Source: Ruegeria sp. R13_0 (lineage in GTDB: Bacteria > Pseudomonadota > Alphaproteobacteria > Rhodobacterales > Rhodobacteraceae). Taken from it: 64,000 nt of DNA. Positions 27,764 through 57,980 of the stretch are shown one piece after another. Position 1 is the first letter of the stretch, and each line of letters starts with the position of its first letter. The DNA lies in contig NZ_JAGHRB010000009.1 in assembly GCF_017743995.1 (NCBI RefSeq), forward strand, positions 1-64,000, in the 5' to 3' direction. The notes beneath the pieces were generated by a model that did not search any database, was not told where the DNA came from, and saw only the letters and a list, made by a program, of their open reading frames with translations. The translations under genes were made by a program, and so were the position numbers.

Positions 27764-28134
27764 CACTCCATCGGCTTCATCAACTCGACTTCCCCACCCT
27801 CGCGCACGGCCGTGTAGAAACACGTCCGGCGGTTGGTGTGACACGCCGCGCCGGTCTGACGGATCACGACCAAGATGCAATCCCGGTCACAATCAAAGCG
27901 GAAATCAACAAGTTCCTGAATGTGGCCGGACGTCTCGCCCTTGATCCAGAACGCCTGACGCGAGCGCGACCAATAGGTGACGCGCCGCGTCTCCAACGTG
28001 CGCTCAATCGCTTGCTGGTTCATCCAGGCCATCATCAGGACCTCACCCGAGGCGTGATCCTGGGCAATGGCGGGGATCAGCCCGGCTTCGTTATATTTGA
28101 GATTGGATGGATCGAACGTGACAGTGTCAGACAT
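27763..28134 (-). CDS. hisI: Phosphoribosyl-AMP cyclohydrolase
   Basis: 123 residues from the ATG at 28134 (AAAGG 8 bases upstream); a more distal ATG at 28152 has no ribosome site. The HisI core is complete: VLMMAWMNQQAIERTLET, YWSRSRQAFWIKGETSGH, then the metal-binding DCDRDC-type stretch FDCDRDCILVVIRQTGAACHTNRRTCFY. It performs the third step of histidine biosynthesis. It is a stand-alone HisI without the HisE domain, as is common in alphaproteobacteria. Confidence 0.95.
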   Translation of the reverse strand: MSDTVTFDPSNLKYNEAGLIPAIAQDHASGEVLMMAWMNQQAIERTLETRRVTYWSRSRQAFWIKGETSGHIQELVDFRFDCDRDCILVVIRQTGAACHTNRRTCFYTAVREGGEVELMKPME

Positions 28135-48994: not shown

Positions 48995-49162
48995 GCTGCT
49001 CACTCCCCGTCTTCAAGTGCTGTTTGGATGGGTCTTAAGCCATCGCATTTGGGATGTATAGCAATCATGAGCATGAATTGTGGCAATGACCAGAACTGTT
49101 TCGGTCCTTTTGCCGACCCGAAGGTTAAGCCAGGGCAGTTCTGCCCCGGCTATTTTCCTTTA

Positions 49163-50158
49163 TCAGGCGTTTACGTCGACGACAACGCGCCCCTTGACCT
49201 GACCTTTCAGAATATCCGCACCCAGCTGCGGCAAATCGGACAGAGCGGCCGGATGCACCATGGCCTCCAGCTTGTCCATCGGCAGGTCGGTCGCGATGCG
49301 CTGCCAAGCCCGCAGACGGTTGTCATAGGGCTGCATCACGCTATCGATCCCCAGAAGGTTCACCCCACGCAGCAGGAAGGGAATCACTGTTGCAGGCAAC
49401 CCCGCACCACCGGCAAGTCCAACAGCGGCGACCGAGCAACCGTATTTCATCTGACCCAAAACGCGCGCCAGCATGTCACCGCCAACTGCATCGACACAGC
49501 CCGCCCAGGTTTCGCTTTCCAGCGGGCGCTTTGTGGTTTCGTTCAGCTCTTCACGCGGCACGATGGTCGTGGCGCCAAGCGATTTCAGGTAGTCTCCGGT
49601 CTCAGGACGTCCGGTTACAGCCGCGACCTCATAACCCAGCTTGCCCAGAATGGCCGTCGCCACCGAACCAACACCACCCGCAGCGCCAGTCACCAGCACA
49701 GGCCCACGATCCGGCGTCAAACCGTGATCCTCCAGTGCCATAACCGCCAACATGGCCGTGAACCCGGCTGTTCCAACGGCCATCGCCTGCCGAGCATCCA
49801 ACCCATCCGGCAAAGGCACCAACCAATCGGCCCGAGCGTTGGCCTTCTGCGAATACCCACCCCAATGGGCCTCACCCACTCGCCAGCCGGTCAGAACCAC
49901 CTTGTCACCGGGCGTGTAACGGTCATCCGAAGACGCTTCGACCGTTCCTGCATAGTCGATACCGGGAATGTGCGGATAGTTCCGCACCAGCCCACCACCC
50001 TTGGCCGACAGGCACAAACCGTCCTTGTAGTTCACCGTCGAATACTCAACAGCCACTGTTACCTCTCCGTCAGGCAGATCCTCCAGCGAGAGCTGCTTGA
50101 CCGAGGGGCTTGCCAGACCGCTTTCTTCATCCTTTTCCATAACCAAAGCATTGAACAT
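49163..50158 (-). CDS. acuI: Acrylyl-CoA reductase (AcuI-type MDR oxidoreductase)
   Basis: 331 residues, YhdH/AcuI group of the medium-chain dehydrogenases. FNALVMEKDEESGLASPSVKQLSLEDLP, STVNYKDGLCLS, NYPHIPGIDYAGTVEASS and VLVTGAAGGVGSVATAILGKLGYEVAAVTGR for the NADPH site are characteristic. AcuI detoxifies acryloyl-CoA formed from DMSP cleavage products by reduction to propionyl-CoA. Its position right after dmdA on the same strand, as in Ruegeria, supports this over a generic quinone reductase. Confidence 0.92.
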   Translation of the reverse strand: MFNALVMEKDEESGLASPSVKQLSLEDLPDGEVTVAVEYSTVNYKDGLCLSAKGGGLVRNYPHIPGIDYAGTVEASSDDRYTPGDKVVLTGWRVGEAHWGGYSQKANARADWLVPLPDGLDARQAMAVGTAGFTAMLAVMALEDHGLTPDRGPVLVTGAAGGVGSVATAILGKLGYEVAAVTGRPETGDYLKSLGATTIVPREELNETTKRPLESETWAGCVDAVGGDMLARVLGQMKYGCSVAAVGLAGGAGLPATVIPFLLRGVNLLGIDSVMQPYDNRLRAWQRIATDLPMDKLEAMVHPAALSDLPQLGADILKGQVKGRVVVDVNA

Positions 50159-50223
50159 ATTGCTATCCTTTCATTTTTGGCGGCCAGCCCAATCCTTCAC
50201 CTGGCCCAAAATATCCCGGGGGA

Positions 50224-50251
50224 GTCGCGCAGCGACGGGGGCAGAGCCCCC
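50224..50251 (-). repeat. Tandem stem-loops between dmdA and acuI
   Basis: GTCGC-gca-GCGAC (50224-50236) is followed directly by GGGGGC-aga-GCCCCC (50237-50251), filling part of the 101-base dmdA-acuI gap. There is no T tract. Such GC-rich double stems recur between Rhodobacteraceae genes and may act as partial terminators or mRNA processing/stability signals, letting dmdA and acuI differ in level. Confidence 0.55.
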
Positions 50252-50259
50252 AGCCTCCG

Positions 50260-51363
50260 CTAGATCCAAAACTGCCCCTGCACCGTCGCGCCCCGCATTC
50301 CGTCAGGCGTTTCAACCTCAACCTTTGTTCCGGCGTCCCAATGGCTCAATTTGACCATACCTATCGAAACATTGGTCGAGAAATCCGGAGACCAGGCCGC
50401 AGACGTCACCTGACCCACCTGCTTTCCGCCCGCAAAGACAGGCCACGGCTGAACACAAGGCGGCACTGCATCTCCGTCAATTGCGATCGGTCTGATCTGC
50501 TGCACCGGGCCCTCCTTGGCCACGCGCAACAACGCATCCCGGCCCACACAGCCAATAGCGGTATGCGTATTGCAGAACTTGCCCAGCCCACATTCATGCG
50601 GTGTGTTGTCGTCGGTCATATCATTGCCGTAGGACAGCAACCCACCTTCGATCCGCTCGATCAGGTTGGGGCACCCGGCCCGCACGTCCAGGTCTTCGCC
50701 CGCCGAGAACAGAGCGTTCCACAGATGCATACCAATATCGCTGCCCTCGACATAAATCTCGAACCCGCCCTGTTTTGAGTATCCCGAACGGGCAACCGCA
50801 AGGTCGCGCCCTTCGAATTCGAACATGTCGAACTTGAAGAAACGTATATCGCGCACACGATCACCGAATACGCGCGCCATCAGCTCATCTGCCTTTGGCC
50901 CCTGAACGCCTAAGGGCGACACGTCCGGCTCATCAACCAGCACATCCAGACGATATCCGTTGGCCAACCCTTTGACCCATAGCAACAAATCGCTGTCGGC
51001 GATAGAGATCCACCAGCGGTCCTCCGACAGTTTCACCGCTACGGGATCGTTCAGCATACCACCGGTTTCGTCCACAATCGGCACATAGAAGCACTGCCCG
51101 GGCAGCATCCCGCGCAGGTCACGCGGTGTCAGCATCTGCATCAGACGGGCAGCATCCGGCCCGCGCAGTTCAACCTGACGTTCACAGGAGACGTCCCAGA
51201 CCTGAACGTTCTTCTTCAGGTGATGGTAGTCGGCCTCGACACTTTCAAAAACCGTCGGCAACAACATCCGATTGTACACCGTGTAGCCTTTGACACCAGC
51301 GGCTTCGACGCCTTCGGAAAACGGCGTACGACGCAGGCGACGAGACAGGGATATTTGCGGCAT
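50260..51363 (-). CDS. dmdA: Dimethylsulfoniopropionate demethylase
   Basis: 367 residues, a GcvT-family (aminomethyltransferase) protein. Family segments include VWDVSCERQVELRGPDAARLMQMLTPRDLRGM, DETGGMLNDPVAVKL, ARSGYSKQGGFEIYVEG, GLLSYGNDMTDDNTPHECGLGKF and WSPDFSTNVSIGMVKL. The marked Gly-Tyr-Ser-Lys, Asn-Asp-Met-Thr and Cys-Gly-Leu-Gly-Lys stretches fit DmdA rather than glycine-cleavage T protein or sarcosine oxidase. It transfers a methyl group from DMSP to tetrahydrofolate, giving methylmercaptopropionate. acuI follows; a DinB gene precedes by one base. Confidence 0.92.
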   Translation of the reverse strand: MPQISLSRRLRRTPFSEGVEAAGVKGYTVYNRMLLPTVFESVEADYHHLKKNVQVWDVSCERQVELRGPDAARLMQMLTPRDLRGMLPGQCFYVPIVDETGGMLNDPVAVKLSEDRWWISIADSDLLLWVKGLANGYRLDVLVDEPDVSPLGVQGPKADELMARVFGDRVRDIRFFKFDMFEFEGRDLAVARSGYSKQGGFEIYVEGSDIGMHLWNALFSAGEDLDVRAGCPNLIERIEGGLLSYGNDMTDDNTPHECGLGKFCNTHTAIGCVGRDALLRVAKEGPVQQIRPIAIDGDAVPPCVQPWPVFAGGKQVGQVTSAAWSPDFSTNVSIGMVKLSHWDAGTKVEVETPDGMRGATVQGQFWI

Positions 51364-51891
51364 TCAGCCCTCCTTTGGCATGAAGCAAAGATCGCTGACC
51401 GGGGCCTCGGAACCGGCTTCAGTCAGCATTTTGTGGAGTTGTCCACGATGATGGGTTTGATGGTTGAAGAAATGCATCACGCATTGCGCGTAAGGCAAAG
51501 TAACATCAGCCTCTTTTGCGGCTGAGTACCATGTGAAAGGCCCGGAAAGGACCTCATCGCCAAGCGTATCCGCCCAGTCCGAGATCCGGTCATCCATAGC
51601 CACGCGCAGAGCCAGCCAGCTGTCGAGGTCAGGGCAGAGATGCACGCTTTCGTGGATGCCGCCTCCGGGTCGGTGGATATTGCTCTCTGGTCCCGGCCCT
51701 TTGTCAAAGCGTGACATCCAGATCCAGTCGCCCCACAGCAAGTGGTTCGCCGTGCCCATGATCGAGCCGAAAAACGCACCGCGTTCCTGCATCAGTTCCT
51801 CGGGTGAGAGCGCTTGAAGAAATTCTGCCAACTGGCTGTTTTGCCAGTGGTTGTAGCGCGCCATTTCCCTTGCATAGGCTCCGGAGATCAT
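51364..51891 (-). CDS. DinB-family putative metal-dependent protein
   Basis: 175 residues from the ATG at 51891, sharing its A with the DUF1326 stop (TGATG). A four-helix bundle with a three-histidine set: NHLLWGDWIW near residue 50 and FFNHQTHHRGQLHKML near residue 145. DinB/YfiT proteins bind a divalent metal; some are thiol-dependent transferases using mycothiol, bacillithiol or glutathione. Its stop abuts the dmdA start, so it is in the same transcript. A link to sulfur chemistry is only suggested by position. Confidence 0.85.
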   Translation of the reverse strand: MISGAYAREMARYNHWQNSQLAEFLQALSPEELMQERGAFFGSIMGTANHLLWGDWIWMSRFDKGPGPESNIHRPGGGIHESVHLCPDLDSWLALRVAMDDRISDWADTLGDEVLSGPFTWYSAAKEADVTLPYAQCVMHFFNHQTHHRGQLHKMLTEAGSEAPVSDLCFMPKEG

Positions 51892-52595
51892 CACTTGGGC
51901 CCATGCCAGTCGATCGGGCAGATCTCGGCGGATTTACCACCGAAATCCCAGACGCGCCCATAATCGCGCACTTTCGATTTGTTTCCGCGCGCCACGATGA
52001 TGTCTGGCCCCATCCAGTATTTGGAGTTCGACACCATCACCGGATGCTCAGGGTCTTTACCGCCCAGCATCTCGATCTCGCCTTGGATTTTGCGACCGAT
52101 CGCAATCCTGCGCTTGTTGCCGTCCCGTTCGATCTGGACCGGAGCACGCTCGGCCCCGATGATCTCACTCACCAGCATTGTGAACAGACCCGTGGTGCCC
52201 CCGGCCTGACCGCTGAAAATCTGCAGCAGCCCGTTATAGGCCTTACCGCTGGCGCGTTCATCGACGTAAGCGGCGACTTTCCATTGCCCCTCGCCCATGC
52301 GACCCGGAATATCGACCAGCAGGCCGACATTCAGACCAGACAGGTCTTCGCCCTCGTAGTGCCCTTCGTCGATGATCACACCCATCCAGGCGTGACAATG
52401 ACCCTCGGTCGGAGGGTGCGCACCCAATGAGACCACACAAGGGCAGAACACATCGCATGAGCAGTTCAGGATCAACTCGCCTTTGATGGACCAATCCGTC
52501 GGGCTCATCTCACGCCGTTTCGGGTTGGGCATACGGCTGTCGATCCGCTGACTAATCGGAAGCCGGTCGGCCTCGGGTTTTCTGTTTTTTGCCAT
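51891..52595 (-). CDS. DUF1326 domain-containing protein
   Basis: 234 residues from the ATG at 52595 (GGAGGAT 7 bases upstream). After a basic N-terminal tail of about 35 residues, the DUF1326 domain starts DWSIKGELILNCSCDVFCPCVVSLG, with a Cys-x-Cys...Cys-x-Cys cluster that looks metal-binding, then GHCHAWMGVIIDEGHY with two histidines. It is paired with the DUF2182 membrane protein four bases upstream, a partnership common in Proteobacteria. Function is not established; metal handling is the natural guess. Confidence 0.85.
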   Translation of the reverse strand: MAKNRKPEADRLPISQRIDSRMPNPKRREMSPTDWSIKGELILNCSCDVFCPCVVSLGAHPPTEGHCHAWMGVIIDEGHYEGEDLSGLNVGLLVDIPGRMGEGQWKVAAYVDERASGKAYNGLLQIFSGQAGGTTGLFTMLVSEIIGAERAPVQIERDGNKRRIAIGRKIQGEIEMLGGKDPEHPVMVSNSKYWMGPDIIVARGNKSKVRDYGRVWDFGGKSAEICPIDWHGPK

Positions 52596-52599
52596 CAGC

Positions 52600-53391
52600 T
52601 TATCCTCCGTAAGCAAAGGGATAGATCAGCAGCACAACACCGCCTGCAATCAGTATGAACCCCATGGGTCGGGTCACAGCATGCCCGATCTGGGGGAGTT
52701 TTTCCAAAACCATGAACAGGGTCGCCAGACCCATCCACAAAAGGCTCATGACGCCACCGACAAAGCCGAGCGCCATGAAGCCCCAGCAGCAACCGACGCA
52801 GAACGCGCCCAGGCCCAGCCCCATTCTCACACCGCCCGCAAAGCCGGTTTTCCAATGGCTTAAAAAATACGTCATTGGGGCGTGACAGACGCCGTGGCAA
52901 ACCTCTTTGGCGCGAGTGAACTGGAAGGCGCCGACCACGATCAGCAGCCCTCCGGCCACCCAATGGGACTTGGCGATGCCCAGCATATCGACAAACCCAC
53001 CGAACAGCAGGGCAAGCTGAACGCCCGCGATAAGCGCCGCAAATCCCACCCAGACGATGAAATACCCGGCCAGAACGCCCAGCCATCCAGCCCGCGTACC
53101 ATTGGCGCTGCGTATCAGGTCGTCATAGCTGCGGAGCGTCGGCACAAGCGTCGGCAGCATCATTGCAGCCATCATGATCGCCCACATCCAGAACAAAGGT
53201 CCGAACTCCGCCATGGGCATATACATATCCATGCGCGGATCCATCGCCGCCATGGCCTGTCCCATCGGCCCTGGCCGGCCAATGAAGTCGAGGTCCATGT
53301 CTCGGCTCATCGAGAACATGACCCACCAGGCCCACAGGATCACTGCGTAGAACGCCAGCCACATCCCGCTGCGGAACATTGCGCGACTCAT
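52600..53391 (-). CDS. DUF2182 polytopic membrane protein (predicted metal-binding)
   Basis: 263 residues from the ATG at 53391, which has GGAGGATCAC upstream. About seven hydrophobic spans. Met-rich stretches (GPMGQAMAAMDPRMDMYMPMAEFG and MWAIMMAAMMLPTLVPTLRSYDDL) and GAFCVGCCWGFMALGFVGG with three Cys are the DUF2182 pattern; AKEVCHGVCHAPMTYF adds Cys and His. Methionine and cysteine ligands suggest copper or similar. It is the first gene of a minus-strand group and is divergent from a GntR regulator. Confidence 0.87.
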   Translation of the reverse strand: MSRAMFRSGMWLAFYAVILWAWWVMFSMSRDMDLDFIGRPGPMGQAMAAMDPRMDMYMPMAEFGPLFWMWAIMMAAMMLPTLVPTLRSYDDLIRSANGTRAGWLGVLAGYFIVWVGFAALIAGVQLALLFGGFVDMLGIAKSHWVAGGLLIVVGAFQFTRAKEVCHGVCHAPMTYFLSHWKTGFAGGVRMGLGLGAFCVGCCWGFMALGFVGGVMSLLWMGLATLFMVLEKLPQIGHAVTRPMGFILIAGGVVLLIYPFAYGG

Positions 53392-53422
53392 GTGATCCTC
53401 CGACTCAACTCTCTTGCTTTTC

Positions 53423-53450
53423 AAATGTCAGACTTTTAAATGTCAGACAA
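53423..53450. promoter_or_regulatory. Direct-repeat operator between DUF2182 and GntR genes
   Basis: AAATGTCAGAC occurs twice, at 53423-53433 and 53438-53448, starts 15 bases apart. The second copy continues to TGTCAGACA, a palindrome with the GT-N3-AC core typical of FadR-type GntR operators. It lies in the 84-base gap shared by the divergent genes, so one regulator could control both. Confidence 0.65.
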
Positions 53451-53475
53451 ATAAAATTTTCAGACCGGCTCCAAA

Positions 53476-54207
53476 ATGAAGATAGATCCCGCCAATCCCG
53501 CAGACCTCTCTGCCCAGATCGCACAGGCCATTCGGAACGCGATCGTGTCCGGCGAATTGATCGTGGATGAGCGCCTGCCCTCTGAATCGGAGCTTGCAGA
53601 TCAGTTTCAGGTTTCGCGCCCCACGGTACGCGAGGCCCTGAAGCGTTTGGCCGCGCAGTCCCTGATCCGCACCCAACGCGGTGCAACCGGCGGGGCCTTT
53701 GTGAACCGGATCAGCTTTGAGGACGCCTATTCGCAGCAAATAACCACCTCGACCCTGCTGCTGTCGATGAACGCCGTCAGTTTCGATACGGCATGCGAGG
53801 CGCGGTATGCGCTGGAACGCGCCTGCGCGGCTTTGTCAGCCCAACGTCGCACCGCGGATCAACTGGCAACGATGCGGGCCGAGATCTTTCGTCAGGCTCA
53901 GCCGGGCCTGACAGATGAGGCCTTCTGCGCCTCGGACGTCGCCTTTCACCGCGCGCTGGTCGATGGCGCGGACAATCCAGTGCTGTCCTATCAACTGGCG
54001 GGTGCGGTCGAGGCCATGCAGCCTCTGATGAACATGATCACTTTCACCGCGCGCTCGCGCGAAGAAATCATTGCGCTGCACACCAAGATCGCCGACGCGC
54101 TTGAGGCGCGCGATGCCCCATCGGTAGACGCAACGCTGATCGAACTAGAAACCTATACGCGCCAACTGGCCCGAGACGTGGCTGAGCGCAAACGTAAAAC
54201 CGCCTGA
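53476..54207 (+). CDS. GntR-family (FadR/FCD) transcriptional regulator
   Basis: 243 residues. Winged helix at ~8-75 (IAQAIRNAIVSGELIVDERLPSESELADQFQVSRPTVREALKRLAAQSLIRTQRG), then an all-helical FCD ligand domain with the metal-binding pattern Asp in FCASDVAFHRALV and His in IIALHTKIADAL. FCD regulators sense organic acids. It sits between the DUF2182-to-acuI transcript and the SBP56 gene, so it is a good candidate to control both. In Ruegeria a GntR gene next to dmdA is known, which fits. Confidence 0.9.
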   Translation: MKIDPANPADLSAQIAQAIRNAIVSGELIVDERLPSESELADQFQVSRPTVREALKRLAAQSLIRTQRGATGGAFVNRISFEDAYSQQITTSTLLLSMNAVSFDTACEARYALERACAALSAQRRTADQLATMRAEIFRQAQPGLTDEAFCASDVAFHRALVDGADNPVLSYQLAGAVEAMQPLMNMITFTARSREEIIALHTKIADALEARDAPSVDATLIELETYTRQLARDVAERKRKTA

Positions 54208-54334
54208 CACCCAGGCCCGAAATCTGACGCAGACCAACAGGCAGAAAGGAAGCACGAGCAGGCAGGATGTCACCCGGCGGCAAGACCGGAACTCTCAAAA
54301 TTAATTGAAGATCAATGACTTACGGGAGGATGTT

Positions 54335-55735
54335 ATGAACACGAGACCGGACCCAACCTTTTACCCATCTGCCAAGCTGGCGATGGAGGGCCCCACTGAG
54401 ACGCTTGCTTTTACGCTGATGCTCAGCCCGGATTTTTCGCAACCTGACGGGCTGGCGGTTGTGAATGTCGATCCAACTTCTGACGACTATGGAAAAATCG
54501 TCCATCAGGTCATCATGCCGGAAAAAGGCGATGAATTTCACCACTTTGGCTGGAATGCTTGCTCTTCCGCGCTGTCACCACTGACGGGCCATGCGTTTCT
54601 GGAGCGGCGCTATCTGATCATTCCGGGCATCCGCTCCAGCCGGATCTACGTGATCGACGTGAAGAACCCGCTTGAGGCCAAGATCCACAAGATCATCGAA
54701 CCCGAAGAAGTCTTTGCAAAGACAGGTTATTCTCGCCCCCACACCATTCATTGCGGACCTGAGGGCATCTATGTCAGCACCTTGGGCGGTGGCGGAGAGG
54801 ACGGAACCGATGGCCCTCCGGGTATCTTCATCATGGATTGCGAAAGTTTCGAGATCATCGGACGGTATGAGATCGAGCGCGGTGTTCAAGACAAGCACTA
54901 TGATTTCTGGTGGAACCTACCGCGTGACTACATGGTCAGTTCCGAATGGGGGCTGCCGCCACAGTTCGAAAACGGAATCGTGGCCGAGGACCTGCTATCG
55001 AACAAATACGGTCACAGCATCCATTTCTGGAACCTGCGCAGCCGTACCAATATCCAAACCATTGATCTGGGCGAAAACCACCAGATGGCGCTGGAAATCC
55101 GGCCTGCGCATGATCCGGTCAAACAGTATGGCTTCTGCGGCGTCGTTGTGGACACAACCAACCTGCAAGGTGCGATCTTCACATGGTGGAGAAACGATGA
55201 CGGCACGTTTGAGGCCAAGAAAACCATCACCATCGACCCGCAACCGGCCGACCCGGATGACCTGCCGGACTTGCTGAAAGGTTTCTCGGCCGTTCCACCG
55301 CTGGTGACAGATATCGACCTGAGCCTCGACGACAAGTACCTCTATGTCGCCTGCTGGGGCACCGGTGAGATGCACCAATATGACGTCTCGGACCCGATGA
55401 ACCCGACACTCGCGGGCAAGGTCGAAATTGGCGGGATCGTCAAAAAGACCAAACATCCGAACGGTCAGGACTTTGGCTATGGCCCGCAAATGGTCGAAAT
55501 CAGCCGCGACGGCAAACGGGTCTACTGGACAAACTCGCTCTATTCCACTTGGGATGACCAGTTCTATCCCGGTGAACGTGGAGCGGCGATGGTCAAGGCG
55601 GATGTCGGCGAGAACGGAGGCTTGACCTTGGATCCTAAGTTCTGGGTCGAGTTCCCCAAAGGTTATCGCAGCCACCAGATCCGGCTGGAGGGCGGAGACT
55701 GTTCGACCGACAGTTTCTGCTACCCTTCGGTCTGA
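54335..55735 (+). CDS. Selenium-binding protein 56 family; putative methanethiol oxidase
   Basis: 466 residues from the ATG at 54335 (GGGAGGATG upstream). A seven-bladed propeller of the SBP56 family: HHFGWNACSSALSP, SRPHTIHCGPEGIYVSTLGG, EWGLPPQFENG, YGHSIHFWNL and a C-terminal YRSHQIRLEGGDCSTD carry the conserved His/Glu/Cys residues. Bacterial members (MtoX) oxidise methanethiol to formaldehyde, H2S and H2O2 and bind copper. There is no signal peptide, unlike the periplasmic Hyphomicrobium enzyme. Proximity to dmdA, whose pathway ends in methanethiol, supports this role; selenium binding is the alternative. Confidence 0.85.
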   Translation: MNTRPDPTFYPSAKLAMEGPTETLAFTLMLSPDFSQPDGLAVVNVDPTSDDYGKIVHQVIMPEKGDEFHHFGWNACSSALSPLTGHAFLERRYLIIPGIRSSRIYVIDVKNPLEAKIHKIIEPEEVFAKTGYSRPHTIHCGPEGIYVSTLGGGGEDGTDGPPGIFIMDCESFEIIGRYEIERGVQDKHYDFWWNLPRDYMVSSEWGLPPQFENGIVAEDLLSNKYGHSIHFWNLRSRTNIQTIDLGENHQMALEIRPAHDPVKQYGFCGVVVDTTNLQGAIFTWWRNDDGTFEAKKTITIDPQPADPDDLPDLLKGFSAVPPLVTDIDLSLDDKYLYVACWGTGEMHQYDVSDPMNPTLAGKVEIGGIVKKTKHPNGQDFGYGPQMVEISRDGKRVYWTNSLYSTWDDQFYPGERGAAMVKADVGENGGLTLDPKFWVEFPKGYRSHQIRLEGGDCSTDSFCYPSV

Positions 55736-55748
55736 GTTGGAATTTCTG

Positions 55749-56399
55749 ATGACATCAACGGCTGGCCTCTGGCTAGCCGTTGTTCTCAGCGGTGCCTATC
55801 ACGGGCTGAATCCCGGTATGGGCTGGCCGCTTGCCGTCTCGTCAGCGTTGATGGAGCAGCGCCAGTCGGCGCTCTGGCGCGCGCTGGCGGCGCTTGCTGG
55901 CGGTCATTTCCTGGCGATGCTGGGTGTCCTGTTGCCATTTGCAATGATGGCCGTGTTGATCGACTACCAACGCGAAATCCGCATTGGGGCCGCGCTGATC
56001 GTTATTGCGATGGGGCTTTATATTGCCGTCACACGCAACCACCCTCGGTTCTTGTCGCGTGTGCCGCCCAGCAAACTCGCGCTGTGGTCCTTTTTGGTCG
56101 CGCTGGCCCATGGCGCGGCCTTGATGCTGGTTCCGATCTATCTGGGCCTATGCAACTTGGATGAGCTAGACGCCGGGCATCAGGCCATCTCTCAGATCAT
56201 GACAACGAACACCCTGCTGGTTCTGGCCGTGGCCGCGCTCCACACGGCGGCAATGATCCTAGGAGGCGGTCTTCTGGCCTATGGCGTCTATCGCTGGCTG
56301 GGGCTGCAATTCCTCTCACGCACGTGGTTCAACCTTGAACTCATCTGGGCACTCAGCCTGATTTTGGTCGGCGTGATGGGGCTTTGGTCGGCAATCTAG
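55749..56399 (+). CDS. Polytopic membrane protein with HupE/NicO-like histidine motifs
   Basis: 216 residues from the ATG at 55749, 14 bases after the SBP56 stop. Six hydrophobic spans. Polar residues inside the membrane are notable: GAYHGLNPGMGWPLAV in the first, LAGGHFLAMLG in the second and VALAHGAALMLVP in the fourth. The His-rich helices resemble nickel/cobalt or HupE-type permeases, but the family's H-x4-D signature is absent. It may supply a metal to the neighbouring oxidase. The family is not certain. Confidence 0.6.
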   Translation: MTSTAGLWLAVVLSGAYHGLNPGMGWPLAVSSALMEQRQSALWRALAALAGGHFLAMLGVLLPFAMMAVLIDYQREIRIGAALIVIAMGLYIAVTRNHPRFLSRVPPSKLALWSFLVALAHGAALMLVPIYLGLCNLDELDAGHQAISQIMTTNTLLVLAVAALHTAAMILGGGLLAYGVYRWLGLQFLSRTWFNLELIWALSLILVGVMGLWSAI

Positions 56400-56474
56400 T
56401 CGCCGCACGATCACCTTGCACAAGTTTTGAAAAACCGCTTTGTCCTGCTTTGAAAGAAGTTAGGAGTTTTCGAA

Positions 56475-57125
56475 GTGTCCCAGAACACGCGCCCCACGGA
56501 AATGCTGCGTCAGGGCAAGGCTGCCGACTGGCAGGCGGCAACAACCCATGCCTTCACGCGCGAGTTGTCAGACGGCACCCTGCCCGAGGACAAGATGCGC
56601 TGGTATCTGCAACAGGACTATCAGTTCGTCGATGGCTTCGTCCGCCTGCTGGCCAGCGCCATCGCACACGCGCCCACCTTGGCCGACAGCGTTCTGGCCG
56701 CGCAATTTCTAGCGGTGATTACCGGTCCTGAAAACACCTACTTCCTGCGCTCGCTCGAGGCTCTGGGCACACAACCCAGCACCGACGCTGCCCCCGCCAC
56801 CAAGGCGTTTCAGGACCTGATGGCGGAGGCTGCGGCCTCGGGCCGGTATGAGAACACGCTTGCAGTGCTGGTTGTCGCCGAATGGGTCTATCTCAGCTGG
56901 GTCAGCCCGGAAAATCCGCCGAAACCCGACCTGCCCTTCTGGTTCGCGGAATGGATCACGCTACATGCCGGAGGAGGTTTTGAGGGCGTGGTCGAGTATC
57001 TGCGTGGACAGCTCGACAAGACCTGGCCCACCTTGACGCCCGAGGCGCAAGCCGAGGTCACAAGACTTTTCCACCGGGCGGTTGAGCTGGAGAAAGACTT
57101 TTTTGACGCCGCCTACGCGGTGTAA
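56475..57125 (+). CDS. TenA-family protein lacking the catalytic cysteine
   Basis: 216 residues starting at GTG 56475 with TTAGGAG upstream. All-helical TenA fold: AFTRELSDGTLPEDKMRWYLQQDYQFVDGFVRLLA includes the substrate Asp, and LVVAEWVYLSWVS contains Glu where the family active site lies. The nucleophilic Cys of thiaminase II (usually PCxWxY) is missing. This matches TenA_E-type or heme-oxygenase-like members. Thiamine salvage, or another pyrimidine or thiol substrate, is possible. It follows the membrane protein gene in the same direction. Confidence 0.78.
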   Translation: MSQNTRPTEMLRQGKAADWQAATTHAFTRELSDGTLPEDKMRWYLQQDYQFVDGFVRLLASAIAHAPTLADSVLAAQFLAVITGPENTYFLRSLEALGTQPSTDAAPATKAFQDLMAEAAASGRYENTLAVLVVAEWVYLSWVSPENPPKPDLPFWFAEWITLHAGGGFEGVVEYLRGQLDKTWPTLTPEAQAEVTRLFHRAVELEKDFFDAAYAV

Positions 57126-57143
57126 CCGGATAAAGGCACGATC

Positions 57144-57506
57144 ATGGTACATATCCTCAACGTCATCGCGGCTCTGCTGACCATCGGCTTTGGCCTGTTC
57201 GGCTTTCTCGCACCTTTGCACACCGCGACGGCGCTGGATCTGGCCCCGACCAACAGCACCATGGGCCTGAGCGAGATGCGCGCCTCGGTCGGAGGGTTGT
57301 TCGTCGTGACGGGCATCGCCGTGATCTGGCTAAACCATCCAATGGCATACGCCATGCTGGGCGTAGCCTATGCCGGGGCGGCTTTGGGGCGGTTCGTGTC
57401 GGTGCTGCTGGACAACCCTCCGCTTGCCAAGGCCATGATTTTCGGGGGAATTGAACTGATCCTGGCCGTCTGGCTGATCGCTGCAAATCTGAACCGCACC
57501 TCGTGA
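57144..57506 (+). CDS. DUF4345 four-helix membrane protein
   Basis: 120 residues, four hydrophobic spans. SEMRASVGGLFVVTGIAVIWL in the middle and GVAYAGAALGRFVSVLLD carry the Arg residues that mark DUF4345 proteins. It is 18 bases after the TenA-like gene and ends the cluster just before ssrA. Function unknown. Confidence 0.75.
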   Translation: MVHILNVIAALLTIGFGLFGFLAPLHTATALDLAPTNSTMGLSEMRASVGGLFVVTGIAVIWLNHPMAYAMLGVAYAGAALGRFVSVLLDNPPLAKAMIFGGIELILAVWLIAANLNRTS

Positions 57507-57574
57507 TTTACAGTGCCCTGAGGGCATTTCCGGGTTTGCATCCCGAAATCTCCTCACCTATATAAGTTCTGTCC

Positions 57575-57878
57575 TTCGGGACTATGGACATAAACGCGCT
57601 CGTAATAAGCGGATCGGACCCGGGGGCGGTACCCGGCGGCTCCACCAACCATCCTTCGTTTGAGGATTTTGGGGCCGAAATAGGATCGACGAACGTCTAA
57701 AGGGGTTAGCTTTGTCTCGGCTGTCTGCCACCGTTATCGGCGAAACTAGTACAATTGCAAACGACAATCGTGCTCCGGTTGCAGTTGCTGCGTAAGCAGT
57801 AACAAGACCGAAACTTAAGCCCTTGCGCCTAGCCGCGTAAGGCGGGGTTCGCAGGTACCTGGCAACAGAAACCTGCAT
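57575..57878 (+). ncRNA. ssrA: tmRNA, circularly permuted two-piece form
   Basis: The acceptor piece comes first: T stem CCGGG/CCCGG, GGCTCC and CCA ending at 57647. A short spacer with hairpin ATCCT/AGGAT is probably removed in processing. The coding piece starts at 57671 (GGGGCCGAAATAGGATCGACG), its GGGGCC pairing with GGCTCC. The resume codon GCA at 57757 opens the tag ANDNRAPVAVAA, with TAA at 57793-57795. This order is the hallmark of alphaproteobacterial tmRNA. Outer ends are approximate. The tag ends Ala-Ala for ClpXP, and the SspB adaptor gene lies 2 kb away. Confidence 0.93.
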
Positions 57879-57980
57879 TCTTTCACGCCTTTTGTCTGCG
57901 TTTATTTTTATTTCGGCTCAGATTCAGAGTTTATTCATCCCTTTTGTCCAAAGTCATCTCAGACAGACAGGAGGGCCGGG

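Follow-up and report, generated by a model that had tools for sequence, protein, structure and literature searches.

The stretch analyzed here (64,000 nucleotides of contig NZ_JAGHRB010000009.1 from Ruegeria sp. R13_0, a genome of 4.68 Mb in 56 contigs; the whole stretch is henceforth the window) contains what is probably a divergent locus for the response to dimethylsulfoniopropionate (DMSP), in which a GntR-family regulator stands over both a demethylation operon and a methanethiol-removing unit formed by an SBP56-family protein and its membrane partner. We propose that the leftward operon, PpoB2-DUF1326-DinB-dmdA-acuI, demethylates DMSP and removes acryloyl-CoA, and that the rightward arm supplies, behind the regulator gene, a two-gene unit of a copper-type SBP56 methanethiol oxidase and a membrane protein. 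This unit would clear the methanethiol coming from the demethylation route, whose remaining enzymes would be encoded elsewhere, thereby, we infer, linking the two arms physiologically. The regulator would bind a predicted tandem TGTCNGAC site within the 84 bp separating the arms and control both of them, with SBP56, which has no site of its own, being expressed by read-through from the regulator gene; the membrane partner and PpoB2/DUF1326 may provide metal supply or maturation. The features of the locus are as follows, in coordinates of the window.

49163..50158, minus strand: acuI for acrylyl-CoA reductase, closing the dmdA operon (TIGR02823 and match to 5gxf)
50260..51363, minus strand: dmdA, DMSP demethylase (NF009133)
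51364..51894, minus strand: DinB-family (S-transferase-like) protein of the dmdA operon (PF05163, 93 bits)
51891..52616 (open reading frame; aligned and modelled part 51894-52505), minus strand: DUF1326 protein (PF07040, 179 bits)
52600..53424 (probable ATG 53391), minus strand: DUF2182/PpoB2 copper-chaperone-family membrane protein, first gene of the operon (PF09948)
53426..53449, no strand: tandem operator predicted in the interval separating the two arms, TGTCAGAC-N7-TGTCAGACA (word statistics)
53476..54207, plus strand: regulator of the GntR/FCD type, transcribed away from the dmdA operon (PF00392, PF07729)
54335..55735 (open reading frame from 54305, TTG), plus strand: SBP56, predicted methanethiol oxidase and RlMTO orthologue (PF05694)
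55749..56399 (open reading frame from 55737, TTG), plus strand: SBP56 membrane partner (no Pfam family)
56475..57125, plus strand: TenA-family protein beside the unit (PF03070)

The scan of the locus against Pfam and NCBIfam covered ten genes (49163-57506), which run leftward from 53424 as PpoB2, DUF1326, DinB, dmdA, and acuI and rightward as GntR, SBP56, the membrane protein, TenA, and DUF4345. A sequence-only reading had recognized dmdA and acuI with an SBP56 gene about 3 kb away, and all three are borne out. DmdA reaches 691.6 bits on the NCBIfam equivalog NF009133, well above the cut-off of 410, with 3tfh, labelled merely “GcvT-like,” as its best solved match (E value 1.9e-109). AcuI scores 448 bits on the acrylyl-CoA reductase family TIGR02823 (cut-off 297) and slightly below the cut-off on the AcuI equivalog NF051456 (425.1 against 440 bits), and its best solved match is the AcuI structure 5gxf (624 bits, E value 5e-187). 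The gap between dmdA and SBP56 is 2980 bp by match ends. In the divergent regulator both the GntR and FCD domains exceed their cut-offs.

The SBP56 domain spans the full protein (577 bits on PF05694, positions 2-453 of 453), and its probable start is the ATG at 54335, which has GGGAGGA ahead of it. Numbered from this ATG, the protein has cysteines 76, 140, and 456 in the motifs GWNACS, HTV(I)HC, and GGDCS(T), the three cysteines conserved in cluster 1 of the SBP56 methanethiol oxidases of Cao 2024. The same numbers, C76, C140, and C456, are given for RlMTO of R. lacuscaerulensis ITI-1157 (EEX10901.1), which consumed methanethiol in an assay (Cao 2024, PMC10936201). Identity between the window protein and the SBP56 of the ITI-1157 dmdA locus (L137) is 95%; the latter also has Cys 76/140/456 when numbered from its ATG and was the one SBP56 found on searching that genome; a separate report (PMC7157515) counts two members of the family in this strain. 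Judging from the strain, the cysteine numbering, and the single copy, we take the L137 gene to be that of EEX10901.1. Since the window SBP56 is a 95% identical orthologue, in the same place, of the assayed RlMTO, it very likely oxidizes methanethiol; the proposal of the sequence-only reading that it does so is thus supported by orthology. RlMTO itself likewise lies beside the GntR gene and dmdA operon, and the main text of the paper describing it (PMC10936201) is silent on genomic context, using none of the terms “dmdA,” “operon,” “gene cluster,” and “upstream.” Residues required for the copper-dependent activity of human SELENBP1 (HH, HxxH, Asp, Glu) are matched by H69 H70, H136 H139, D190, and E254, as assigned from motifs and near-equal spacing rather than by alignment to the human protein. 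No signal peptide is evident by eye. The source genome was found to have a single SBP56, and phmmer recovers a sole solved relative, 2ece from Sulfolobus.

The further suggestion of the sequence-only reading, a local set of genes leading from DMSP to H2S and formaldehyde, is unsupported on two counts. None of the ten genes scanned is dmdB, dmdC, or dmdD, the best dmdB candidate in the genome lying 58 kb off (C56:108961) and scoring 804 bits against a cut-off of 822; and the product reported for RlMTO is sulfane sulfur, with neither H2S nor H2O2 (PMC10936201). Reported products of the human enzyme do include H2S and H2O2 (PMC10362175), and H2S as the product of methanethiol oxidation by this type of enzyme is disputed.

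The window protein is also distinct from MtoX proper, scoring 105.7 bits against an equivalog cut-off of 650. By score, the SBP56 proteins of the family Rhodobacteraceae fall into three types, A (about 680 bits), B (about 575 bits, that of the window), and mtoX (about 140 bits), with one intermediate copy besides; this family sample comprises 199 genomes at least 90% complete, of which 68 have SBP56. The mtoX-SCO1/SenC-MauG operon of Hyphomicrobium and R. pomeroyi (PMC5739008) shares with the window an SBP56-family protein and DMSP-linked methanethiol oxidation. Unlike that operon as there described, the window has a different SBP56 branch lacking (by eye) a signal peptide, a GntR rather than an IclR regulator, neither SCO1/SenC nor MauG among the ten genes scanned, and another membrane partner.

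This partner lies 3' of 43 of the 44 full-length type B SBP56 genes of the family sample, with a spacing of 16-44 bp by match ends in 41; the sole copy lacking it (G051) is a cut one that starts at base 4 of the contig. The intermediate copy is likewise followed by the partner, which is found beside none of the 27 type A and none of the 4 mtoX-type genes; conversely, 44 of the 45 partner genes adjoin an SBP56. A phylum sample of 249 genomes, which overlaps the family sample in G000 and G050 (type B) and in G020 and G069 (mtoX type), gives the same distribution (type B 14/14, intermediate 4/4, type A 0/3, mtoX type 0/4), with 18 of 20 partner genes adjoining SBP56. We found no description of this pairing in the open-licence papers searched, and one may exist in print elsewhere. 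An alignment of 17 distinct rows (the window's own copy appears twice, as L001) reveals invariant histidines at positions 18, 53, 121, and 165, along with several invariant Met and Trp residues. The protein has no NCBIfam match, no Pfam match above cut-off, and no match among solved sequences, and its model (predicted local distance difference test, pLDDT, 74) retrieves only the background expected of helical proteins (best Foldseek E value 0.26, best VIA Z 8.0). By analogy with the SCO1 and MauG of the mtoX operons (PMC5739008), the partner might serve in metal supply to SBP56 or its maturation.

The two arms may be joined by the regulator. Among 141 regions of 440 bp around the GntR start, the word TGTCNGACA occurs exactly in 119 and with at most one mismatch in 137; single-base shuffles yield exact occurrences in 0.66 regions (at most 4) and one-mismatch occurrences in 19.4. 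With near-identical regions counted once, the word is exact in 112 of 134, against 0.82 in shuffles. In the window it is present in tandem, with one mismatch at 53426-53434 and exactly at 53441-53449. As the divergent GntR gene is accompanied by a tandem TGTCNGAC site that is exact nowhere else in the genome, one switch may serve both arms, which renders plausible, on the strength of a predicted operator, the idea of the sequence-only reading that the unit is under one regulator. A regulon beyond the locus was sought and rejected: tandems with up to two mismatches number 61 against 55 for a reversed control, roughly background. An exact TGTCAGACA word is also seen in the window outside the locus, at 28125-28133. 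GntR and SBP56 are spaced by 52-131 bp in intact linked loci, and a separate operator for SBP56 was rejected, since 21 of 23 loci have no TGTCNGACA word with up to one mismatch in this gap; the other two have one-mismatch words, and the gap of one locus in the set (L130) is mismeasured because its SBP56 is broken. In the window the gap has neither an operator-like word nor a plus-strand terminator-like site, and for this reason SBP56 is probably transcribed by read-through from the regulator gene.

The leftward operon may be compared with the Roseobacter dmdA-acuI operon (PMC3338564). With that operon the window shares dmdA followed by acuI, a pair that in R. pomeroyi is co-regulated and induced by DMSP and by acrylate; the available part of that report makes no mention of PpoB2, DUF1326, or DinB, which here precede dmdA. 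The family sample contains 92 dmdA genes (E value 1e-120), and their loci, some of which end early at contig ends, contain DUF1326 in 65 cases, PpoB2 in 64, acuI in 63, GntR in 55, and DinB in 35, with dmdA alone in 21. For the best 80 of 558 named dmdA loci, the nearest of which (93% identity) are Ruegeria, the figures are GntR 80, acuI 80, PpoB2 69, DUF1326 69, and DinB 51. PpoB2 (201.6 bits on PF09948 in the window, cut-off 28.7) lies within 2.4 kb of 64 of the 92 dmdA genes, always on the same strand, against about 0.25 expected within 5 kb. The usual order, where the genes are present, is a divergent GntR followed on the other strand by PpoB2, DUF1326, sometimes DinB, dmdA, and acuI. Hence, PpoB2, DUF1326, and often DinB are conserved partners of dmdA-acuI. 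The open-licence literature yielded no description of them as such, with print elsewhere possible, and nothing on DUF2182/DUF1326 or on SPO1910, SPO1911, and SPO1912; for COG5486, PF09948, COG5588, and PF07040, it yielded a Marinomonas review alone, and no title among the matches listed ties dmdA to copper, a copper chaperone, metal binding, or DinB.

One possible explanation, though not one on which we would settle, is that PpoB2, DUF1326, and DinB guard against acrylate or acryloyl-CoA, for instance, through thiol transfer by DinB, with dmdA being a guest in an acuI operon. The family sample has 123 PpoB2 matches over 106 genomes, and 58 of these genes, in 51 genomes, 36 of them without dmdA, lie away from dmdA. 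Sorted by reading, 57 of these loci comprise 28 with PpoB2 followed by DUF1326 (20 of them with acuI), 23 with the reverse order, mostly of lower scores, and 6 with neither. As acuI adjoins 20 of the 28 loci lacking dmdA nearby, the PpoB2-DUF1326 pair is tied no less to acuI than to dmdA. The acrylate induction of R. pomeroyi dmdA-acuI (PMC3338564) points the same way, as do a genome retaining DinB-acuI with this GntR (G003) and another whose dmdA, lying between DUF1326 and acuI, is split in two (G013; L256; C51:27533-28865). Against this, 6 of the 92 loci have PpoB2-DUF1326-dmdA without acuI, and 11 of the best 80 of 558 have GntR-dmdA-acuI without PpoB2-DUF1326. G013 also has a broken SBP56 elsewhere in its genome, and both ends of its DMSP route may be decaying jointly.

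A second alternative, which we regard as unlikely, is that SBP56 and its partner form a free-standing thiol-detoxification unit under separate control that sits beside the dmdA regulator by chance. SBP56 is no general neighbor of dmdA: it lies within 10 kb of only 4 of the 92 dmdA genes of the family, one of these SBP56 genes being broken, and it is present in 3 of the 92 loci as scored by gene content, each of which also has the membrane partner, seen in no other of the 92. In favor of the divergent locus, SBP56 and the partner lie beyond GntR, as seen from the dmdA operon, in 21 of the best 80 of 558 loci (one SBP56 broken), from seven Ruegeria, one alphaproteobacterial metagenome-assembled genome, and 13 Tateyamaria records. 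The dmdA-linked SBP56 of Ruegeria sp. EL01 is broken across a pair of reading frames (L130:3646-5076), and its membrane partner is open. The arrangement of dmdA alongside a selenium-binding protein was not found described in the parts of the open-licence literature available to us.

Several observations weigh against the divergent DMSP-response locus that we favor. Forty-one of the 44 type B copies of the family have no dmdA within 10 kb, and 59 of the best 80 of 558 loci have no SBP56. Among the 37 unlinked type B copies read, that of G003 alone is accompanied by this GntR and acuI (G051, G076, G173, and the second copy of G196 were assessed solely for a dmdA up to 10 kb away), and the neighbors of most SBP56-partner pairs vary, as judged from 20 unlinked loci clustered and from the majority of those 37. 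A search of 49000-57500 gave no sigma-70-like promoter. On the other side, 34 genomes of the family carry both dmdA and a type B SBP56, and three intact pairs lie within 10 kb against 0.22 expected (P 0.0016, assuming 4-Mb genomes); two of the three share one genus, and when the pairs are counted as two events, P is 0.022. The dmdA-linked SBP56 proteins occupy three separate places in a 66-row tree (which omits the two L130 pieces, 18 of 24 type A rows, and L001, L046, and L261, these being copies of the window), and well-supported branches force three changes, with gains and losses indistinguishable from the tree. We conclude from the pair count and these three places that the adjacency exceeds chance and is confined to few lineages. 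The gap between GntR and SBP56, which in the window has no operator-like word and no plus-strand terminator-like site, likewise argues against a separately controlled unit.

Other arrangements bear on the same question, those of G061, G142, G006, and G003 coming from genomes that are neither Ruegeria nor Tateyamaria. In G061, dmdA, SBP56, and the partner follow in a row. G142 and G006, which have no dmdA at the search threshold, possess operons of a DmdA-like gene, an OsmC-like gene (named by eye), an enoyl-CoA hydratase, and a CoA ligase that terminate in SBP56 and the partner (L305:7194-13459 and L306:5895-12190), again at odds with a free-standing unit; these might perhaps represent another demethylation operon, acting on DMSP or on a compound related to it. 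Their weight as evidence for the favored divergent locus is lessened by the DmdA-like genes, which are 40-41% identical to DmdA and score 380-381 bits (381 in G142) against the cut-off of 410, and by the remaining genes of G142, whose CoA ligase scores 317 bits against 822 for the dmdB model and whose hydratase fits a model for enoyl-CoA hydratases in general. In G003 this GntR (448 bits), an open reading frame, SBP56, and the partner are divergent from acyl-CoA dehydrogenase-DinB-acuI (dehydrogenase and DinB named by eye). GcvT-family or DmdA-like genes also occur near the SBP56-partner pair on the opposite strand in G057 and G104. TenA, past the partner in the window, is not conserved (4 of 92 family loci and 10 of the 80 closest), and a permuted transfer-messenger RNA gene (57555-57886) lies directly past the SBP56-TenA-DUF4345 stretch; the GntR-ssrA edge may be liable to gain and lose genes.

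Doubtful in turn is the idea that PpoB2 and DUF1326 constitute a copper-delivery system for the SBP56 oxidase. It is suggested by the copper requirement of methanethiol oxidases (PMC5739008, PMC10362175) and by the PpoB1-PpoB2 tyrosinase operon of Marinomonas mediterranea (PMC2855505), where a PpoB2/COG5486-family membrane protein hands copper to tyrosinase, a transfer not known for other PpoB2 proteins; the operon here differs in lacking a tyrosinase, in having DUF1326 as the partner, and in being one for DMSP and acrylate. PpoB2 has invariant Met and Cys residues (alignment A3), and DUF1326 has an invariant CxCxxxCPC motif and one further Cys (alignment A2, 31 rows). The DUF1326 model (pLDDT 91) is predicted with high confidence to adopt a fold like that of acetoacetate decarboxylase: the nine top Foldseek matches are all of this fold (E values 5e-5 to 3e-4; VIA Z 10.2-11.0), the best by VIA aligning 153 residues at a root mean square deviation of 3.5. 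A common fold does not establish function, and no Lys is invariant in the 31 rows of A2, whereas acetoacetate decarboxylase uses a catalytic lysine. Sequence searches of the PDB gave four unconvincing matches for DUF1326 (E values 0.17-0.4) and none for PpoB2. Across the 199 genomes, PpoB2 is present in 55 of the 68 with SBP56 (p 1.6e-8), and a weak association is seen among those without dmdA, where type A or B SBP56 is found in 8 of the 36 that have PpoB2 and in 5 of the 79 that lack it (p 0.023). Yet both genes track dmdA, and among dmdA genomes the association is gone, with type A or B SBP56 in 37 of the 64 that have PpoB2 in the operon and in 10 of the 20 that do not (p 0.61), and type B alone in 29 of 64 and 5 of 20 (p 0.12). 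A conserved role of PpoB2 and DUF1326 as SBP56 helpers was on these grounds rejected, and their persistence beside acuI in 20 of 28 loci away from dmdA tells against it as well; more broadly, the pair may act in copper or acrylate handling. At L223 (G123:C5), a low-scoring relative of PpoB2 lies about 0.7 kb from a type A SBP56 on the same strand.

That SBP56 serves other thiols or selenium handling, with methanethiol incidental, is very improbable: human SELENBP1 accepts several thiols, but methanethiol and ethanethiol are by far its best substrates (PMC10362175), and RlMTO consumes methanethiol (PMC10936201).

Methanethiol is the branch point at which the sulfur of DMSP is either kept in biomass or lost as gas. 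While the enzyme chemistry of its oxidation is already known, the membrane partner and the PpoB2-DUF1326-DinB genes are more novel. It was noted in 2020 that methanethiol in R. lacuscaerulensis must reach sulfide by a route other than MtoX (PMC7157515). The likely gene for the non-MtoX methanethiol route is here located in the DMSP locus, along with its partner gene. Further, although dmdA is a widely used marker for marine DMSP cycling, its operon retains two or three genes without a known role. More tentatively, one could imagine that DMSP and acrylate catabolism in Roseobacters has an unrecognized copper module, comprising PpoB2-DUF1326 as a membrane/cytosol pair and an obligate new partner family of RlMTO-type oxidases that replaces SCO1 and MauG. 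If this were true, copper supply would help set the share of DMSP sulfur that leaves as methanethiol.

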